A stretch of DNA of 64,000 nucleotides, from contig NZ_JACHEX010000003.1 of the NCBI RefSeq assembly GCF_014201655.1, forward strand, positions 186,001 through 250,000, read 5' to 3'. The stretch comes from Thermosipho japonicus (GTDB lineage: Bacteria > Thermotogota > Thermotogae > Thermotogales > Fervidobacteriaceae). Numbering within the stretch: the stretch's first letter is position 1; each line of letters begins with the position of its first letter. The notes beneath the pieces were generated by a model that was not told the origin of the DNA, did not search any database, and saw nothing but the letters and a program-made list of their open reading frames with translations. This document shows, one piece after another, positions 30,494 through 36,832 of the stretch. The translations under genes and the position numbers were made by a program.

Positions 30494-32236
30494 TTGATCA
30501 TTCTAAATAATCTCACAATTTCATTTCCAGGAAAAACTCTGTTGTCGGATGTTAATTTAAATATATCCGATAAGGAAAGGGTTGCACTAATTGGTAAAAA
30601 TGGTTCAGGAAAAACAACACTATTAAAGGCAATAGCTGGTATTTTTAACGACTACACAGGAAAGATAATCACTTCCGGTAAAATTTTGTATCTTGACCAA
30701 TTTAGAACATTTGACGAAAAAACTCCATACGAATACTATATGAAAGTAGCTAACACTCCAGAAAAAGAAAGACTAGTTAGAAGCATACTCAAGGGTTTGG
30801 GATTTGAAGAAGAAGATTGGTACAGAGATATCTCCACTTTTAGTGGTGGAGAGAGAACAAGGCTTCAAATTGGAAGGCTTTTCATTGAAGATGCAGACTT
30901 TATTCTACTAGACGAACCAACAAATTATCTTGATATTTTAGGAATAAGATTTCTTAAAAACCTCCTAAAAAACTTTAACGGAGGTTACATTATAATCTCA
31001 CACGATAGAAGTTTTTTAAGAGATACATGTGAAAGATTTTTAGAAATAAACAACGAAAAAATATGGGATTTTAAAATGAAATTTGACAATTACCTCGTCG
31101 AAAGAGAAAGACTTATACTCCACCAACAAAGAACAATGAAGAACAAGCAAAAGGAAATTGAAAGGTTAAAAAAGATAATTGAAAGATACAGAAAATGGGG
31201 AAGAGAAAAATTCATAAAACAAGCAAAAAGTAAAGAAAAAATGCTACAAAAGATGCTTGAAGAGCTTGAATCTGAAGTAACTTTCAACAAAGAAGAATTT
31301 GATAAAAAAATATCCCTTCCAACTCCTGAAATGCCAGGTCACGTAGTTTTAACCGTAAAACATTTAAAATTCTTGGATATCCTAAAAGATGTAAGCTTTA
31401 CAATCCATTCGGGAGATAAAATGGCTCTGCTTGGTAAAAACGGTTCTGGAAAAAGTACTATCCTAAGATTAATTAAAGGAGATAAAAATGGCTCAGGAAC
31501 AGTTGAATTTGGATACAATGTAAGAGTAGAATTTCTTGATCAATTTGTAGAAGAACTAGATGATGAAAGTACTGTGTTTGAAGAAATATCAAATGAAATG
31601 GAATTTGAACCAGATTATGTAATACGGGCGTACGCTGGAAGATTCGGTTTCAAGGGAGAAGAGGTATTTAAAGAAGTACACAACCTTAGTGGTGGTGAAA
31701 GACAAATCCTTGCACTTGCAAAGGTTCTCCTTAGAAAGCCAAATCTTTTAGTGCTTGATGAACCTACAAATCATATGGATCTAGACACGCTAGAGGCTCT
31801 CGAAAACGCTTTAAAAGAATTTAAAGGAAGCATTATACTTGTTTCGCACGATGAAGAGCTCATAAAGAACGTGTGTAACAAATTTTTTGTATTAGAAAAT
31901 GGAATACTAAAAGAAATATATGACCTTAGTGAATACGTTCCAACTGAAGAAAAAGAAAGAAAAAAGAAAGAAAATATAGAATTTGAAGAGAAAAAGAAAC
32001 TGAAGAACAAATTAAAAAGCCTAAAAGAACAATTGAAAAAGAAAAGAGAAGAAGAAGAAAAATTAATAAAAGAACTTGAAAGTGTTGAAGAAGAGCTCTT
32101 AAATGTTAATTCTGATTATGTAAAAGCAGAAAAGCTTGTAAATCAAAAAAATAAATTAGAAGAGAAGATATTTAATACAATGCATGAGATCGAAGAGTTT
32201 AAAAAACAAATCGAAGAACTTGAAAAAGCTCTATAA
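30494..32236 (+). CDS. ABC-F family ATPase (translation/antibiotic-resistance type)
   Basis: A 580-residue soluble protein with two ABC modules and no membrane part. Walker A GKNGSGKTT (about 36-44) and GKNGSGKST (about 315-323), signatures SGGERTR and SGGERQ, and Walker B LLDEPTN and VLDEPTN are all present, separated by a basic linker rich in Lys/Arg (about 205-270), the ribosome-binding P-site tip region. The C-terminal 100 residues form a highly charged coiled coil as in Uup. TTG 30494 with GAGGTGATT upstream is the start. It ends tail to tail with MATE, overlapping by six bases. Confidence 0.92.
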   Translation: MIILNNLTISFPGKTLLSDVNLNISDKERVALIGKNGSGKTTLLKAIAGIFNDYTGKIITSGKILYLDQFRTFDEKTPYEYYMKVANTPEKERLVRSILKGLGFEEEDWYRDISTFSGGERTRLQIGRLFIEDADFILLDEPTNYLDILGIRFLKNLLKNFNGGYIIISHDRSFLRDTCERFLEINNEKIWDFKMKFDNYLVERERLILHQQRTMKNKQKEIERLKKIIERYRKWGREKFIKQAKSKEKMLQKMLEELESEVTFNKEEFDKKISLPTPEMPGHVVLTVKHLKFLDILKDVSFTIHSGDKMALLGKNGSGKSTILRLIKGDKNGSGTVEFGYNVRVEFLDQFVEELDDESTVFEEISNEMEFEPDYVIRAYAGRFGFKGEEVFKEVHNLSGGERQILALAKVLLRKPNLLVLDEPTNHMDLDTLEALENALKEFKGSIILVSHDEELIKNVCNKFFVLENGILKEIYDLSEYVPTEEKERKKKENIEFEEKKKLKNKLKSLKEQLKKKREEEEKLIKELESVEEELLNVNSDYVKAEKLVNQKNKLEEKIFNTMHEIEEFKKQIEELEKAL

Positions 32237-33568
32237 CTTTTCAACAACATTTTTTACCCATTTTTTACTGTGATATCTCGAATAAAGAATAATTGCCTTT
32301 GTTATTTCATCGCTCATTGTAAAAAGATAAACAATTGGAAATGAAAATTTTAAAATAAGGCCTGAAAATGCAGCAAGAGGAACTCCAAGAAGCCATAATG
32401 TTCCTGCTTCGACCATAAAAGAGTATCTTGTATCACCACCTGCTCTTAAAAAACCAACAATGTTTAAACCATTAAAGACCTTGATTGGTATAAAGGCCAT
32501 GGAAATTGTTATAGTTACTCTAACAAGTATTTTTACTTCATCAGAAACATCAAAAAAGTTTACTATGTAGTAGGAAAGAATAACAGTTAAAGTACCAGAA
32601 ATAATTGCTACAATCTGTGAAAGCTTTATTACCTTTTTTGAAACATCAAAAGCTTCTTTGAATCTAGACGCACCAAGATAATTTCCAACAATAACGGATG
32701 CAGCTGATGCAATAGAAAATGTAAAGGAATATGCAAATCCTTCAATGGTTCCCATTATATTTCTTGCCGCTATCGTTTGAGTGCTCATATGAGCGTATAT
32801 AACAGAATACATTGTCATACCAAAAGACCAAGCAAATTCATTAGCAATTGTTGGTAATGTGTAATGGAAAAAGTTCTTTAAGAATTTCTTATCAATCATC
32901 TCAACATGTTTGAGTGTAAAAAAACCTGGAAGATTTTTTATCTTTATAATCAAAATTAAACTAGCAAGTCCAACTATCCTTGCGATAAGGGTTGCTATAG
33001 CTGCTCCTAAAATACCAAGTTTTGGAAAACCAAACTTTCCAAATATTAAACTATAATTTAAAAATACATTCGTTGATAATTCTACTATCGTTACATACAT
33101 AGGAATATGAGCCTTTTCTACACTTCTTAAAACAAAAGAAAAGACCATACTCAAAGCAAATATTGGAAAAGAAAAAGAGATAATTTTTAAATAAATAATT
33201 CCTTCCTTAATTACAAGTGGGTCAGGACTAAAAAACCTCATAACAATTTGTGGAAAGAAAAAAGAAAGAGTAAAAAATACCGCAGAAAAAAGTAAGGCAG
33301 TAGTGCTTGTTACTGCGGATGATTTTGCTATTCCATCTATATCTTTCTTCCCCCAAAATTGTGAAAAAAAGATGGAACCGCCTGATATAAGTCCGAATAA
33401 TATAAGATTGTATAGAAAGAAAAATTGATTTGAAAGTCCCACACTTGCAATTGCAACTTCACCAAGTTTTCCAATCATTAAGGTATCAACAAAATTGACA
33501 CCAGTAGATAAAAATTGTTGTAATGCAATGGGAAGTGCTATTGCAAATATTTTTTTATATATTCCCAT
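32231..33568 (-). CDS. MATE family efflux transporter
   Basis: A 445-residue inner-membrane exporter with twelve hydrophobic helices and the MATE pattern (IALPIALQQFL, GVNFVDTLMIG, NIMGTIEGFAYSF). MATE pumps exchange sodium or protons for cationic drugs or metabolites. The gene is read from a promoter that overlaps, back to back, the arsR promoter, and a TTAGT-N7-ACTAA palindrome covers its leader. This suggests control by the adjacent ArsR-type regulator. Confidence 0.92.
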   Translation of the reverse strand: MGIYKKIFAIALPIALQQFLSTGVNFVDTLMIGKLGEVAIASVGLSNQFFFLYNLILFGLISGGSIFFSQFWGKKDIDGIAKSSAVTSTTALLFSAVFFTLSFFFPQIVMRFFSPDPLVIKEGIIYLKIISFSFPIFALSMVFSFVLRSVEKAHIPMYVTIVELSTNVFLNYSLIFGKFGFPKLGILGAAIATLIARIVGLASLILIIKIKNLPGFFTLKHVEMIDKKFLKNFFHYTLPTIANEFAWSFGMTMYSVIYAHMSTQTIAARNIMGTIEGFAYSFTFSIASAASVIVGNYLGASRFKEAFDVSKKVIKLSQIVAIISGTLTVILSYYIVNFFDVSDEVKILVRVTITISMAFIPIKVFNGLNIVGFLRAGGDTRYSFMVEAGTLWLLGVPLAAFSGLILKFSFPIVYLFTMSDEITKAIILYSRYHSKKWVKNVVEKL

Positions 33569-33579
33569 ATAATTCCTCC

Positions 33580-33596
33580 TTAGTTAGGATTACTAA
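33580..33596 (-). promoter_or_regulatory. Candidate ArsR operator in the MATE leader
   Basis: TTAGT (33580-33584) and ACTAA (33592-33596) form an inverted repeat with a 7-base spacer. It lies between the MATE -10 box and its ribosome site. Related words occur in three nearby promoters. Confidence 0.45.
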
Positions 33597-33598
33597 TT

Positions 33599-33627
33599 AT
33601 TTTAACATATGTAAAAATAATTGACAA
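33599..33627 (-). promoter_or_regulatory. Promoter of the MATE gene
   Basis: Minus-strand TTGTCA (33622-33627) and TAAAAT (33599-33604) are 17 bases apart. The -35 box shares its bases with the -35 box of the divergent arsR promoter (33621-33626), so the two promoters must compete. Confidence 0.55.
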
Positions 33628-33650
33628 TATTAGTAAAAATTAGTTATAAT
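33621..33650 (+). promoter_or_regulatory. Promoter of arsR with direct TTAGT repeats
   Basis: TTGACA (33621-33626) and TATAAT (33645-33650) are 18 bases apart. Two TTAGT direct repeats at 33630-33634 and 33640-33644 lie inside the spacer, one helical turn apart, a plausible repressor site. Confidence 0.7.
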
Positions 33651-33682
33651 AAAAAAGAATTTACAAAAAAAGGAGTGGAAAA

Positions 33683-33946
33683 GTGGAAAAATTCGAAGAA
33701 GCTGCAAGCATTTTAAAGGCACTTGGACATCCAATTAGACTTAAGATATTATACCTACTAAGTGAAAAAGAACATTGTGTTTGTGAATTATTATCTAAAA
33801 TAAATACGAGCCAACCAAATCTTTCACAACATCTTTCTATCTTAAGAAATTTAAAATTAATCAAAGATGAAAGAAATGGAAACATGGTAATCTACAAATT
33901 GCAAGATAACGAGCTTGTCAAAGCTATTCTTAGCGCTTTAAAATAA
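33683..33946 (+). CDS. ArsR/SmtB family transcriptional regulator
   Basis: An 87-residue winged-helix repressor. The alpha-3 metal or thiol motif is present as CVC at residues 32-34 (HCVCELLSK), as in arsenic- and cadmium-sensing ArsR/CadC proteins; the recognition helix is NTSQPNLSQHLSILRNL. The start is GTG 33683 after AGGAGTGG. It is the first gene of a unit with the permease and mini-thioredoxin. The ligand may be As(III), another soft metal or a redox signal. Confidence 0.92.
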   Translation: MEKFEEAASILKALGHPIRLKILYLLSEKEHCVCELLSKINTSQPNLSQHLSILRNLKLIKDERNGNMVIYKLQDNELVKAILSALK

Positions 33947-33954
33947 TTTTTTTA

Positions 33955-33983
33955 TTGACAATATAAGCACTTTATTATATACT
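33955..33983 (+). promoter_or_regulatory. Promoter of the permease gene
   Basis: TTGACA (33955-33960) and TATACT (33978-33983) are separated by 17 bases. ACTAA (33981-33985) overlaps the -10 box, and the word ACTAATTATT is shared with the MATE leader. Confidence 0.65.
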
Positions 33984-34025
33984 AATTATTGAAATTACTG
34001 ACTATTATAGAAAGGATGATTTTTT

Positions 34026-35114
34026 GTGAAGGAGTTTGTGATTATTTTAACAATCTTTTTAACATTTTACTTTGTTCCATTTAATGCTTCTATCGTTCAA
34101 GATAGTATATTAAATGGATTTCAAATGCTGCAAGAATATGCAAGAGAGCATGTATTGCTTTGTCTTGTACCGGCATTTTTTATTGCTGGAACTATAAGTG
34201 TCATGCTCAAAAAAGATGCTGTACTAAAACTTTTAGGACCAACTGCAAAGAGAATTATTTCTTACCCCATTGCAGCAGTAAGTGGTGGAATACTTGCAGT
34301 ATGCTCTTGTACCATTCTTCCTCTTTTTGGAGGGATATATAAAAAAGGTGCAGGAATTGGACCAGCAACCACGTTTCTTTTTGCTGGACCTGCAATAAAT
34401 ATAGCCGCAATATTTTTGACAGCTAGAGTTCTTGGTTGGGATCTAGGTTTGGCAAGATTAATAGCAACTGTAACTGCTGCTATACTGATTGGTTTGATAA
34501 TGGAATTATTATTTCAAGAAAAAGGTGAAGGTGGTTTTATTACAACAGAGGAAAAAAGTGAAAATGGTCTAAAAGTACTTGTATTTTTCTTGCTACAACT
34601 TGCATTCTTAATAATTGGTGGATTAAAAATTAATCCAGCAGTTAAATATACAACAATGTTTGTCATATCAATTATTGTATTTTTAATGGCAGTATTTTCA
34701 TTTAAAAGAGATACTACAAAAAGCTGGCTTGAAGAATCTTGGGATTTTGCAAAAAAGATTTTACCTTATCTTTTTGTTGGGGTATTTTTAGCAGGAATAA
34801 TAACAAAACTTCTTCCTCAAGAAGTGGTTACAAAAATACTAGGAAGTAATGGAATACTTTCAAATCTTTTCGCATCAGTTATTGGAATGTTTATGTATTT
34901 TGCAACACTTACTGAAGTCCCAATTGTTCAGGCTTTAAGAGAACTTGGAATGGCAAAAGGACCAACACTTGCACTTCTTATGGCTGGAAATTCTTTGAGC
35001 CTTCCAAGCATGATCGTTATAACAAGACTTTTTGGAAAGAAAAAGGCATTTACATACTTTACCTTGGTTGTGATATTTTCAACAATATTTGGTTTAATAT
35101 ACGGAAGAATATGA
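34026..35114 (+). CDS. Permease of the DUF318/ArsP-like family
   Basis: A 362-residue integral membrane protein with about ten helices and the family segment VCSCTILPLFGGIYKKGAGIG near residue 95 followed by FAGPAINIAA; a related segment recurs in the second half (TEVPIVQALRELGMAKGPTLALL, then GNSLSLPSM). ArsP members export trivalent organoarsenicals, and the CSC pair may bind thiophilic ligand. Start GTG 34026. The neighbours (ArsR repressor, CPRC thioredoxin) support a role in metalloid or thiol stress, but the substrate is not proved. Confidence 0.87.
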   Translation: MKEFVIILTIFLTFYFVPFNASIVQDSILNGFQMLQEYAREHVLLCLVPAFFIAGTISVMLKKDAVLKLLGPTAKRIISYPIAAVSGGILAVCSCTILPLFGGIYKKGAGIGPATTFLFAGPAINIAAIFLTARVLGWDLGLARLIATVTAAILIGLIMELLFQEKGEGGFITTEEKSENGLKVLVFFLLQLAFLIIGGLKINPAVKYTTMFVISIIVFLMAVFSFKRDTTKSWLEESWDFAKKILPYLFVGVFLAGIITKLLPQEVVTKILGSNGILSNLFASVIGMFMYFATLTEVPIVQALRELGMAKGPTLALLMAGNSLSLPSMIVITRLFGKKKAFTYFTLVVIFSTIFGLIYGRI

Positions 35115-35128
35115 GGGGAGGGGAAAAT

Positions 35129-35365
35129 ATGGCAAAAAAGATTGAAATTTTAGGAAGTGGATGTCCAAGATGCAAACAAACCGAAAAAATAATGAAAATG
35201 GCAGTAGAAGAACTTAATATCGATGCAACTATTGAAAAAGTACAAGATATCAACGAGATTATCTCTCGCGGAGTTGCTGCAACACCCGCGGTTGCAATCG
35301 ATGGAAAAATAGTTATTTCCGGAAAAATTCCAAAACTTGAAGAAGCAAAAAAGCTTTTACAATAA
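35129..35365 (+). CDS. Mini-thioredoxin / redox-active disulfide protein 2
   Basis: A 78-residue thioredoxin-fold protein with active site CPRC at residues 12-15 and cis-Pro in the segment ATPAVAIDG. This family (thioredoxin_3, redox-active disulfide protein 2) is repeatedly found beside DUF318 permeases. I start at ATG 35129 because GGGGAGGGG precedes it; the open frame extends six codons upstream through that ribosome site. It may reduce the permease CSC or its substrate. A terminator follows. Confidence 0.9.
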   Translation: MAKKIEILGSGCPRCKQTEKIMKMAVEELNIDATIEKVQDINEIISRGVAATPAVAIDGKIVISGKIPKLEEAKKLLQ

Positions 35366-35375
35366 GGATAATTAG

Positions 35376-35412
35376 AAAAAATAAGAGGGGAAAAATTTCC
35401 CTCTTATTTTTT
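35376..35412 (+). terminator. Intrinsic terminator of the arsR-permease-thioredoxin unit
   Basis: A perfect 14-bp stem (35376-35389 with 35399-35412) whose A/T flanks include the final T run. The 9-base loop is AT-rich. Confidence 0.9.
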
Positions 35413-35414
35413 AC

Positions 35415-35443
35415 TTGACAAATTAGTATAAACTAAGTATAAT
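35415..35443 (+). promoter_or_regulatory. Consensus promoter of the CoADR-like gene with internal operator
   Basis: TTGACA (35415-35420), 17 bases, TATAAT (35438-35443): a perfect consensus. TTAGT-ATAA-ACTAA (35423-35436) fills the spacer as an inverted repeat, an ideal place for a repressor. Confidence 0.75.
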
Positions 35444-35497
35444 TATAGATGAAATCTAAAAGTTAAATTATTCTCAAATTAAGGAGGCTGAAAAAAT

Positions 35498-36832
35498 ATG
35501 AAAGTAATAGTTATAGGTTGTACACATGCTGGAACTGCGTTTACCGTAACTGCAAAAAAATTATATGGAGACAAAGCAGACATTACAATATATGAGAAAA
35601 ATGACACAATATCGTTTCTCTCATGTGGAATTGCACTCCACGTTGGTGGCGTGGTGAAAGACCCTGAAAAACTTTTCTATTCTTCTCCAAAACAATTATC
35701 AGAAATGGGAGCAAATCCAAAGATGAAACATGAAGTAATTGATATTAACACAAAGGAAAAATGGGTTCTTGTTAAGAATCTTGAAACCGGTGAGACTTTC
35801 AAAGATACTTACGACAAGTTATTGATATCTTCTGGTTCATGGCCAATCATTCCGAATATTCCCGGAATTGATCTTGAAGGAATTAAACTTTCAAAAAACT
35901 TTTACCACGCACAAGATATAATTAATCATTCAAAAAATGCTAAAAGAATTGCCGTTATTGGTGCAGGATATATTGGCGTTGAACTTGCTGAAGCTTTTAA
36001 AGAAAACGGAAAAGAAGTTATGCTCTTTGATATAAAAGATAGAATTCTATCAAGATACCTTGATAGAGAATTTACAGATATTTTAGAAACAGAATTAAAA
36101 AATAACGGTGTTGAACTTATCCTTGGAGAAAAAGTTGTAGAATTTAAAGGTGAAAACAACCATGTAAGTAAAATTATCACCGACAAAGGTGAATATAATG
36201 CAGATATGGTAGTGCTTGCAATAGGATTCAAGCCTAATACAGAACTTTTTAAAGGAAAAGTAGAAATGCTAGAAAACGGAGCAATTAAAGTCGACAAGTA
36301 TCTTCATACTTCTGAAAATGATTTATTTGCCGTAGGAGATAGTGCAGCTGTTTGGTTTACACCTACTAATTCATATGAGTATATTCCACTTGCAACAAAT
36401 GCTGTTAGGATGGGGACAATAGCTGCATACAATTTATTCGATGCTACGGTAGAATACAAGGGAACACAAGGAACTTCCGGTGTTAAAGTGTATTCATATA
36501 ACGTCTTTACTACTGGGTTAAGTCAACAGTTTGCAGAAGAAAGAAATTTAGATGTGAAAACTATATTTACAATAGAAAATAACAGACCAGAGTTTATGCC
36601 TGAGTATGAAAAAGTATACATAAAAATCGTATATGACGATAAAACTAAAAGAATCCTTGGCGGTCAGATAATGTCTAAAGCTAATGTAGCAGAAAGTATA
36701 AATACTCTTTCACTTGCTATTTCAAATAATATGACTTTAGTTGATATTGCATTTTCAGACTTTTTCTTCCAACCCCACTTTAACAAACCTTGGAACTTCT
36801 TAAATACTGTTGCATTAAAGGCTATTCAGTAA
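35498..36832 (+). CDS. CoA-disulfide reductase / NADH oxidase-like flavoprotein
   Basis: A 444-residue FAD- and NAD(P)H-dependent oxidoreductase of the single-cysteine group. The FAD Rossmann start is at the N-terminus, redox Cys43 lies in FLSCGIAL, the NAD-binding GAGYIGVELAEAF is near residue 152, and the second FAD motif is LFAVGDSA. Family members reduce CoA disulfide, polysulfide/elemental sulfur or oxygen (Nox). No C-terminal rhodanese is present. In an anaerobe a role in oxygen or thiol stress, or sulfur reduction, fits. It has its own consensus promoter and probably belongs to the neighbouring regulon. Confidence 0.9.
   Translation: MKVIVIGCTHAGTAFTVTAKKLYGDKADITIYEKNDTISFLSCGIALHVGGVVKDPEKLFYSSPKQLSEMGANPKMKHEVIDINTKEKWVLVKNLETGETFKDTYDKLLISSGSWPIIPNIPGIDLEGIKLSKNFYHAQDIINHSKNAKRIAVIGAGYIGVELAEAFKENGKEVMLFDIKDRILSRYLDREFTDILETELKNNGVELILGEKVVEFKGENNHVSKIITDKGEYNADMVVLAIGFKPNTELFKGKVEMLENGAIKVDKYLHTSENDLFAVGDSAAVWFTPTNSYEYIPLATNAVRMGTIAAYNLFDATVEYKGTQGTSGVKVYSYNVFTTGLSQQFAEERNLDVKTIFTIENNRPEFMPEYEKVYIKIVYDDKTKRILGGQIMSKANVAESINTLSLAISNNMTLVDIAFSDFFFQPHFNKPWNFLNTVALKAIQ

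Follow-up and report, generated by a model that had tools for sequence, protein, structure and literature searches.

A conserved TTAG operator at suf and NADH oxidase promoters of a Thermotogota family, most likely read by an Rrf2-type protein rather than by ArsR

Regulators of the Rrf2 family involved in iron–sulfur (Fe–S) metabolism (IscR, RisR of M. xanthus, IscR of T. potens) govern suf together with linked Fe–S and cysteine targets, and their sites lie over or beside the −10 hexamer; both features recur in the system described here. The genes for these regulators differ in place from the candidate considered below, which is located next to mnmA and not in suf, and the three loop cysteines of IscR, which ligate its cluster, contrast with two in the Rrf2 proteins of the present family. 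RisR, according to the accessible part of its description, represses suf and isc from sites over the promoter hexamers, and its operator is GAC-N7-GTC, as opposed to TTAG-N6-CTAA here (PMC9973013). A parallel to the Rrf2–mnmA neighborhood is offered by Clostridium perfringens, where, as the excerpted text has it, an Rrf2-iscS-iscU-trmU cluster is induced by cysteine limitation (PMC2940859). In Fervidobacterium islandicum grown on feather, sufB, sufC and cysteine synthase rise jointly, as stated in the available portion of PMC13157175.

Other described systems share single traits with this locus. CymR likewise counts cysE/cysK among its targets, but the target that recurs most constantly in the present system is suf; the candidate regulator scored 43.1 bits with the NCBIfam CymR model (cut-off 195), and CymR is described, in the accessible text of PMC9338935, as working without an Fe–S cluster. 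HcpR2 of Thermotogales (FNR family) resembles the present system in its 5-4-5 palindrome and its link to DUF438 and hcp; its box, GTAACnnnnGTTAC in the excerpted text of PMC1274295, differs from the operator and is present in the DUF438 promoter as an element of its own. The ArsR/SmtB arsenic and metal repressors are represented by a protein encoded in the window that shares the family domain and the CVC motif; the inverted repeat conserved in the permease promoter is distinct from the TTAGT/ACTAA element at issue. A probability of roughly 0.58 is assigned here to a joint reading, i.e., a TTAG operator regulon (suf, cys, prx, DUF438, Nox and probably MATE) read most likely by an Rrf2 protein, with ArsR standing apart.

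The window and its promoters

The window, i.e., the whole 64-kb stretch of DNA analysed (G000:C3:186001-250000), belongs to a genome of 1.92 Mb with 31% G+C (G000; other G numbers denote the compared genomes). The MATE, arsR and flavoprotein promoters listed below were assigned from the sequence.

32231-33568, minus strand: MATE gene, as placed in the window gene order
33599..33627, minus strand: MATE promoter (−35 TTGTCA 33627-33622, 17 bp, −10 TAAAAT 33604-33599)
33621-33626 and 33645-33650, plus strand: arsR promoter (TTGACA and TATAAT)
33683..33946, plus strand: ArsR/SmtB-family regulator with CVC motif (PF01022, HTH_5, 57.6 bits, cut-off 22; NF033788, 95.3 bits, cut-off 55)
33978-33983, plus strand: permease −10 TATACT, overlapped by ACTAA 33981-33985
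34026..35114, plus strand: ArsP_1 family permease (PF03773, 305.3 bits)
35129..35365, plus strand: small thioredoxin-like protein of the MTH895/ArsE family (TIGR00412, 99.8 bits)
35378..35410, plus strand: terminator-like hairpin between the thioredoxin gene and the flavoprotein unit (fold −16.6 kcal/mol, z −3.96)
35415..35443, plus strand: the flavoprotein's own consensus promoter (TTGACA 35415-35420, 17-bp spacer, TATAAT 35438-35443)
35498..36832, plus strand: flavoprotein gene of the NADH oxidase/CoA-disulfide reductase family (Nox/CoADR-like), from NCBIfam and PDB relatives

The −35 hexamers of the divergent MATE and arsR promoters overlap back to back (window 33599-33650), so the two promoters may interfere with each other; the MATE −10, seen as ATTTTA on the opposite strand, is invariant in 5/5 aligned genomes. 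The top NCBIfam model for the flavoprotein was H2O-forming NADH oxidase (479.6 bits, below the cut-off of 600), and its relatives in the PDB are NADH oxidases/peroxidases. The permease–thioredoxin–flavoprotein adjacency (window 34026-36832; L208, G001:C10) was encountered in G000 and G001 alone; where other relatives possess a Nox orthologue, it is sited away from arsR.

The operator at suf and flavoprotein promoters

An earlier note on this DNA had suggested that one repressor-type site is common to the four promoters of MATE, arsR, the permease and the flavoprotein, lying in each where a repressor would act, and that it is read by the ArsR protein encoded in their midst. The letters and positions of the motif are correct in all four: TTAGTTAGGATTACTAA occupies 33580-33596 in the MATE leader, TTAGTATAAACTAA lies at 35423-35436 in the flavoprotein promoter, TTAGT occurs at 33630 and 33640 inside the arsR promoter spacer, and ACTAA overlaps the permease −10. 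Matrix and comparative tests upheld both the common site and its repressor-suited placement (over, beside or just after the −10) for the flavoprotein and probably for MATE, and for neither arsR nor the permease. The first finding is thus half right: of the four promoters, one and probably a second carry a real operator, while the other two and the protein were wrongly assigned.

Searched genome-wide as first written, TTAGTN{4,7}ACTAA was not enriched (15 places vs. 24 in the reversed control), with 12 of the 15 places within ORFs and three in promoters (MATE, flavoprotein and the DUF438 gene), and TTAGT is rarer across the whole window than in shuffles (131 vs. 218). The reading in which all four sites are chance matches in AT-rich promoter DNA draws on this lack of enrichment and does hold for the arsR and permease parts; as an account of all four it is extremely improbable, given the conservation and matrix scores of the suf and Nox sites. 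At arsR, the direct repeats taken for an operator have lost their first TTAGT in G002, G003 and G014, and no spacing gives a strong match; the ACTAA of the permease is largely the end of its −10 and found no support in the matrix and comparative tests.

A redefined motif, AATTAGKN{4,5}CTAA, drawn up after three of its own sites had been seen, gave 14 strand matches in the own genome vs. 5 in the control. Six of its 12 places are intergenic (window intergenic fraction 5.8%), a figure that is partly circular because the pattern was modelled on the suf, Nox and DUF438 sites; once these are set aside, three of the nine remaining places are intergenic. The 18-bp string AATTAGTAWAAACTAAGT is fitted by the flavoprotein and DUF438 sites alike. 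With up to three mismatches it showed no excess (27 matches vs. 41 in the control), and only its best matches are informative; three have two mismatches, and one of these falls in front of sufC, downstream of the −10.

Comparison of sufC upstream sequences from 30 genomes revealed RTTAGK-N5-CTAA downstream of a −10-like hexamer in 19 of the 19 family genomes with a detected sufC (G000-G018), plus G025; G019, which is 60% complete, gave no sufC match. In the seven genomes of genus g7, the left half AATTAGG of the suf site is kept and the right half is degraded to CATAAG or CGTAAG, and G050, G060 and G056 display a left half-like string or nothing upstream of sufC. Nine further sufC regions (in three of which the start was not recovered) scored 11.9 bits in G023, 11.3 in G042 and 8.9 in G043 at suf, and less than 8 in the other six.

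The window was scanned with a matrix trained on 17 suf sites from relatives, to which neither G000 nor G001 contributed.

35421..35438, plus strand: operator AATTAGTATAAACTAAGT filling the flavoprotein promoter spacer (suf matrix 19.8 bits), conserved at Nox

The second-best match in the 64 kb reached 10.0 bits, and none of 40 simulated 64-kb windows attained the flavoprotein score (the highest was 17.7). Before Nox, the same matrix found sites of 12.2-21.9 bits, 63-115 bp upstream, in 10 of 11 relatives' regions (7-15 kb); G017 carries a further Nox copy, 46 bp upstream of which the matrix placed a separate site of 15.4 bits, and the Nox promoter of G001 carries the site of the window. By this matrix no Nox site was found in G002 or in G050 (another family), and that of G019 is weak (7.0). 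Since scores of 12–14 arise by chance about once per 64 kb, position bears much weight for the weaker Nox sites. The TTAGT-N4-ACTAA of the flavoprotein promoter is one copy of an operator, AATTAGK-N4-MCTAATT, that is conserved across this Thermotogota family.

Two other views of the Nox promoter were dropped. One was an early footprint reading that only ACTWAG beside the −10 is conserved; in G005, G013 and G017 the site covers the −10, some 9 bp farther downstream. The other was a PerR/Fur-like box, TTATACTWAGTATAA, which was not enriched (22 vs. 31 in the control).

The MATE leader and further targets

33580..33600, minus strand: probable variant operator TTAGG-ATT-ACTAA (spacer of 3 bases), lying downstream of the MATE −10 and ahead of the ribosome-binding site

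The letters of the TTAGT-N7-ACTAA described for MATE are present, but its N7 form is a misregister of this 3-base-spacer element. With an arms-only matrix, for which spacers of 0–8 were tried and spacer 3 was selected, the MATE element scored 20.8 bits and the next match in the window 8.4; the score was reached by none of 40 simulations (highest 19.9), and one simulation in a previous set of 12 gave 20.4. G001-G003 preserve the core GTTAGGATTACTAA, which is altered in G014; the flanks differ, and in G002 and G003 the variant scores only 9.5 bits. The element is probably a spacer variant of the suf/Nox operator, with moderate support. That it is unrelated to the suf operator, being either private to a MATE-specific regulator or a product of chance, is a sizeable though lesser possibility: the spacer was picked after nine had been tried, simulations came close to the score (one in 12 and one in 40), and the element is weak or altered in three relatives. 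Against it speak the lead of 12 bits that MATE has over any other match in the window, the layout of −10, site and ribosome-binding site, which is the same as at suf, and the core kept in four genomes.

The operator pattern with a −10 attached yielded 31 matches vs. 12 in the control across 45 genomes. Of these, 17 fall at suf and eight at cysE/cysK, at DUF438, at peroxiredoxin or in the MATE leader; another five hit unrelated genes or ORF interiors (off-target matches of this kind being L328, L329, L348 and L354), and one, in G019, is identical to the suf sites of G009 and G018. The MATE match of G000 counts as a site only, because the TATAAT it includes is not the MATE −10. The operator precedes cysE-cysK in G002, G003 and G010 and cysK-cysE in G017; it is found at peroxiredoxin in G003 (by the pattern) and in G000 and G001 (by the matrix), and at the DUF438-hemerythrin-PAS gene in G000, G001 and G014. 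The DUF438-hcp unit of G003 displayed no site. A protein-disulfide oxidoreductase was rejected as a target, its matches being weak (8.2 bits in G000, 7.4 in G014).

The DUF438 promoters also feature, upstream of the −10, a box GTAAC-N4-GTTAC (G014, L344) or GTAAT-N4-ATTAC (G000, L326), a match or near-match to the HcpR2 motif as given in the accessible part of PMC1274295, and two regulators may act on DUF438. Near the peroxiredoxin gene (L385:324-2278, G000:C6), cas1 and cas2 are followed by an ORF with repeated FQFLQGKVQT, which is probably a CRISPR array.

Candidate regulators and the place of ArsR

The operator precedes genes of Fe–S assembly, cysteine synthesis and peroxide defence, and thus probably belongs to an Fe–S/redox regulator rather than to ArsR. 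Judging from the regulon content, its likeliest reader is the single clear Rrf2-family protein of the genome, encoded beside mnmA.

G000:C4:39786-40172 (L269): Rrf2-family (IscR/CymR-like) candidate (PF02082, 99.1 bits, cut-off 30)

The gene is flanked by tRNA 2-thiouridylase domains (confirmed with Pfam) on one side and a 3D-domain gene on the other, and in 12 family genomes an Rrf2 gene stands before an MnmA-like gene. Rrf2 proteins above the Pfam cut-off are encoded in 20 of the 21 genomes searched (13/13 of the family, G000-G012, and 7/8 others). The candidate fell below the cut-offs of the subfamily models for the SUF regulator, RirA, IscR, NsrR and CymR (e.g., 52.0 bits vs. 207.55 for the IscR equivalog TIGR02010); its closest solved chain is 4cic, a BadM/Rrf2 regulator that we take to be the IscR of Thermincola potens. 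Alignment of the family's Rrf2 proteins showed two sensor-loop cysteines instead of three cluster ligands, and other ligands are possible. In 11 regions upstream of Rrf2 no site of at least 9 bits was found, hence there is no sign of autoregulation.

According to the preferred Rrf2 reading, a repressor on AATTAGK-N4-MCTAATT would occlude the −10 or start site, thereby co-controlling suf and, depending on the genome, cysE/cysK, peroxiredoxin, the DUF438-hemerythrin protein and Nox, to which the MATE pump would probably be joined through its 3-base-spaced variant, although such a change of spacing is unusual for one repressor. The Rrf2 protein would free these promoters upon a shortage of Fe–S clusters or cysteine or upon the arrival of oxygen.

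It is less likely, though quite conceivable, that the real operator is read by another factor, e.g., a MarR-type, Fur-type or Crp/FNR-type repressor. The genome encodes three Fur and six over-cut-off MarR proteins, the 5-4-5 spacing is like that of FNR-family boxes, Crp-family genes adjoin DUF438 in G003 and G014, and G023, with no Rrf2 above the cut-off, keeps its degenerate suf site; moreover, MarR- and TetR-type factors are also induced in F. islandicum, as reported in the accessible text of PMC13157175, which counts against an Rrf2 reader. Conversely, the FNR-type element of the DUF438 promoter is a separate HcpR2-like box (GTAAC-N4-GTTAC in G014; motif from the excerpted PMC1274295), the PerR-like box is not enriched, and the gene set suits Rrf2 regulators better.

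More tentatively, at odds somewhat short of even, the whole may constitute an undescribed Thermotogota regulon, in which one 18-bp operator and an Rrf2 protein with a two-cysteine loop unite Fe–S assembly, cysteine synthesis, a putative Fe–S-repair hemerythrin, peroxide removal and an oxygen-consuming NADH oxidase, with the MATE pump recruited in the genus of the window via the spacer variant. No paper listed by the literature searches describes this operator in its title or in the opening of its abstract. If true, such a regulon would show the coupling of oxygen removal to Fe–S and cysteine supply in anaerobic thermophiles, would provide an operator and a named candidate repressor open to testing, and would detach from an arsenic regulator an oxidative-stress promoter attributed to it on proximity alone.

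As for ArsR itself, its CVC motif is invariant across 16 aligned sequences; As(III)/Sb(III) sensing through CVC is known from other ArsR proteins and is putative for this one. Fourteen hand-aligned promoters at or just after arsR in relatives have ATATTMGAA-NN-TTCTKATAT in common, located in the permease promoter, downstream of arsR, in the clade of the window and in front of arsR in other genera.

33961..33980, plus strand: putative ArsR-type operator, drifted, within the spacer of the permease promoter (11.9 bits), at a position orthologous to the relatives' sites

This copy is the best match in the window, yet its score was reached by 12 of 20 simulations; the score is 18.1 in G001 and 20.7-26.0 in the relatives, whose sites trained the matrix. 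The strict consensus was not enriched across the own genome (28 vs. 42 control strand matches). From these alignments, ArsR would be expected to act separately, on its own site at the permease promoter.

The claim that the small CVC ArsR binds TTAGT/ACTAA in all four promoters and is released by As(III), Cd or similar is very improbable. It is favored by promoter positions within 1.9 kb of arsR and by the local density of half-sites: seven TTAGT/ACTAA in the 325 bp of the three gaps vs. about two expected (22 in 3465 bp over the window's 20 intergenic stretches of at least 30 bp, the three gaps included), the choice of gaps being post hoc. However, G004, whose suf and Nox sites are strong, gave no match to the window's ArsR at E<=1e-8, which makes ArsR an unlikely reader; in G006, G007, G009 and G015, where the suf site is also kept, the best ArsR matches are paralogues only 33-42% identical. 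In addition, the operator stands at unlinked suf, cys and prx genes, the arsR repeats are not conserved, and ArsR orthologues share a different site.

A second ArsR-type site of 16.9 bits was located at G000:C6:23659-23678 (L207:3659-3678), a short way in front of a ferredoxin-like gene, after which comes another ArsR-family gene, and a similar ferredoxin-like ORF directly follows the arsR orthologue in G012 and G043.
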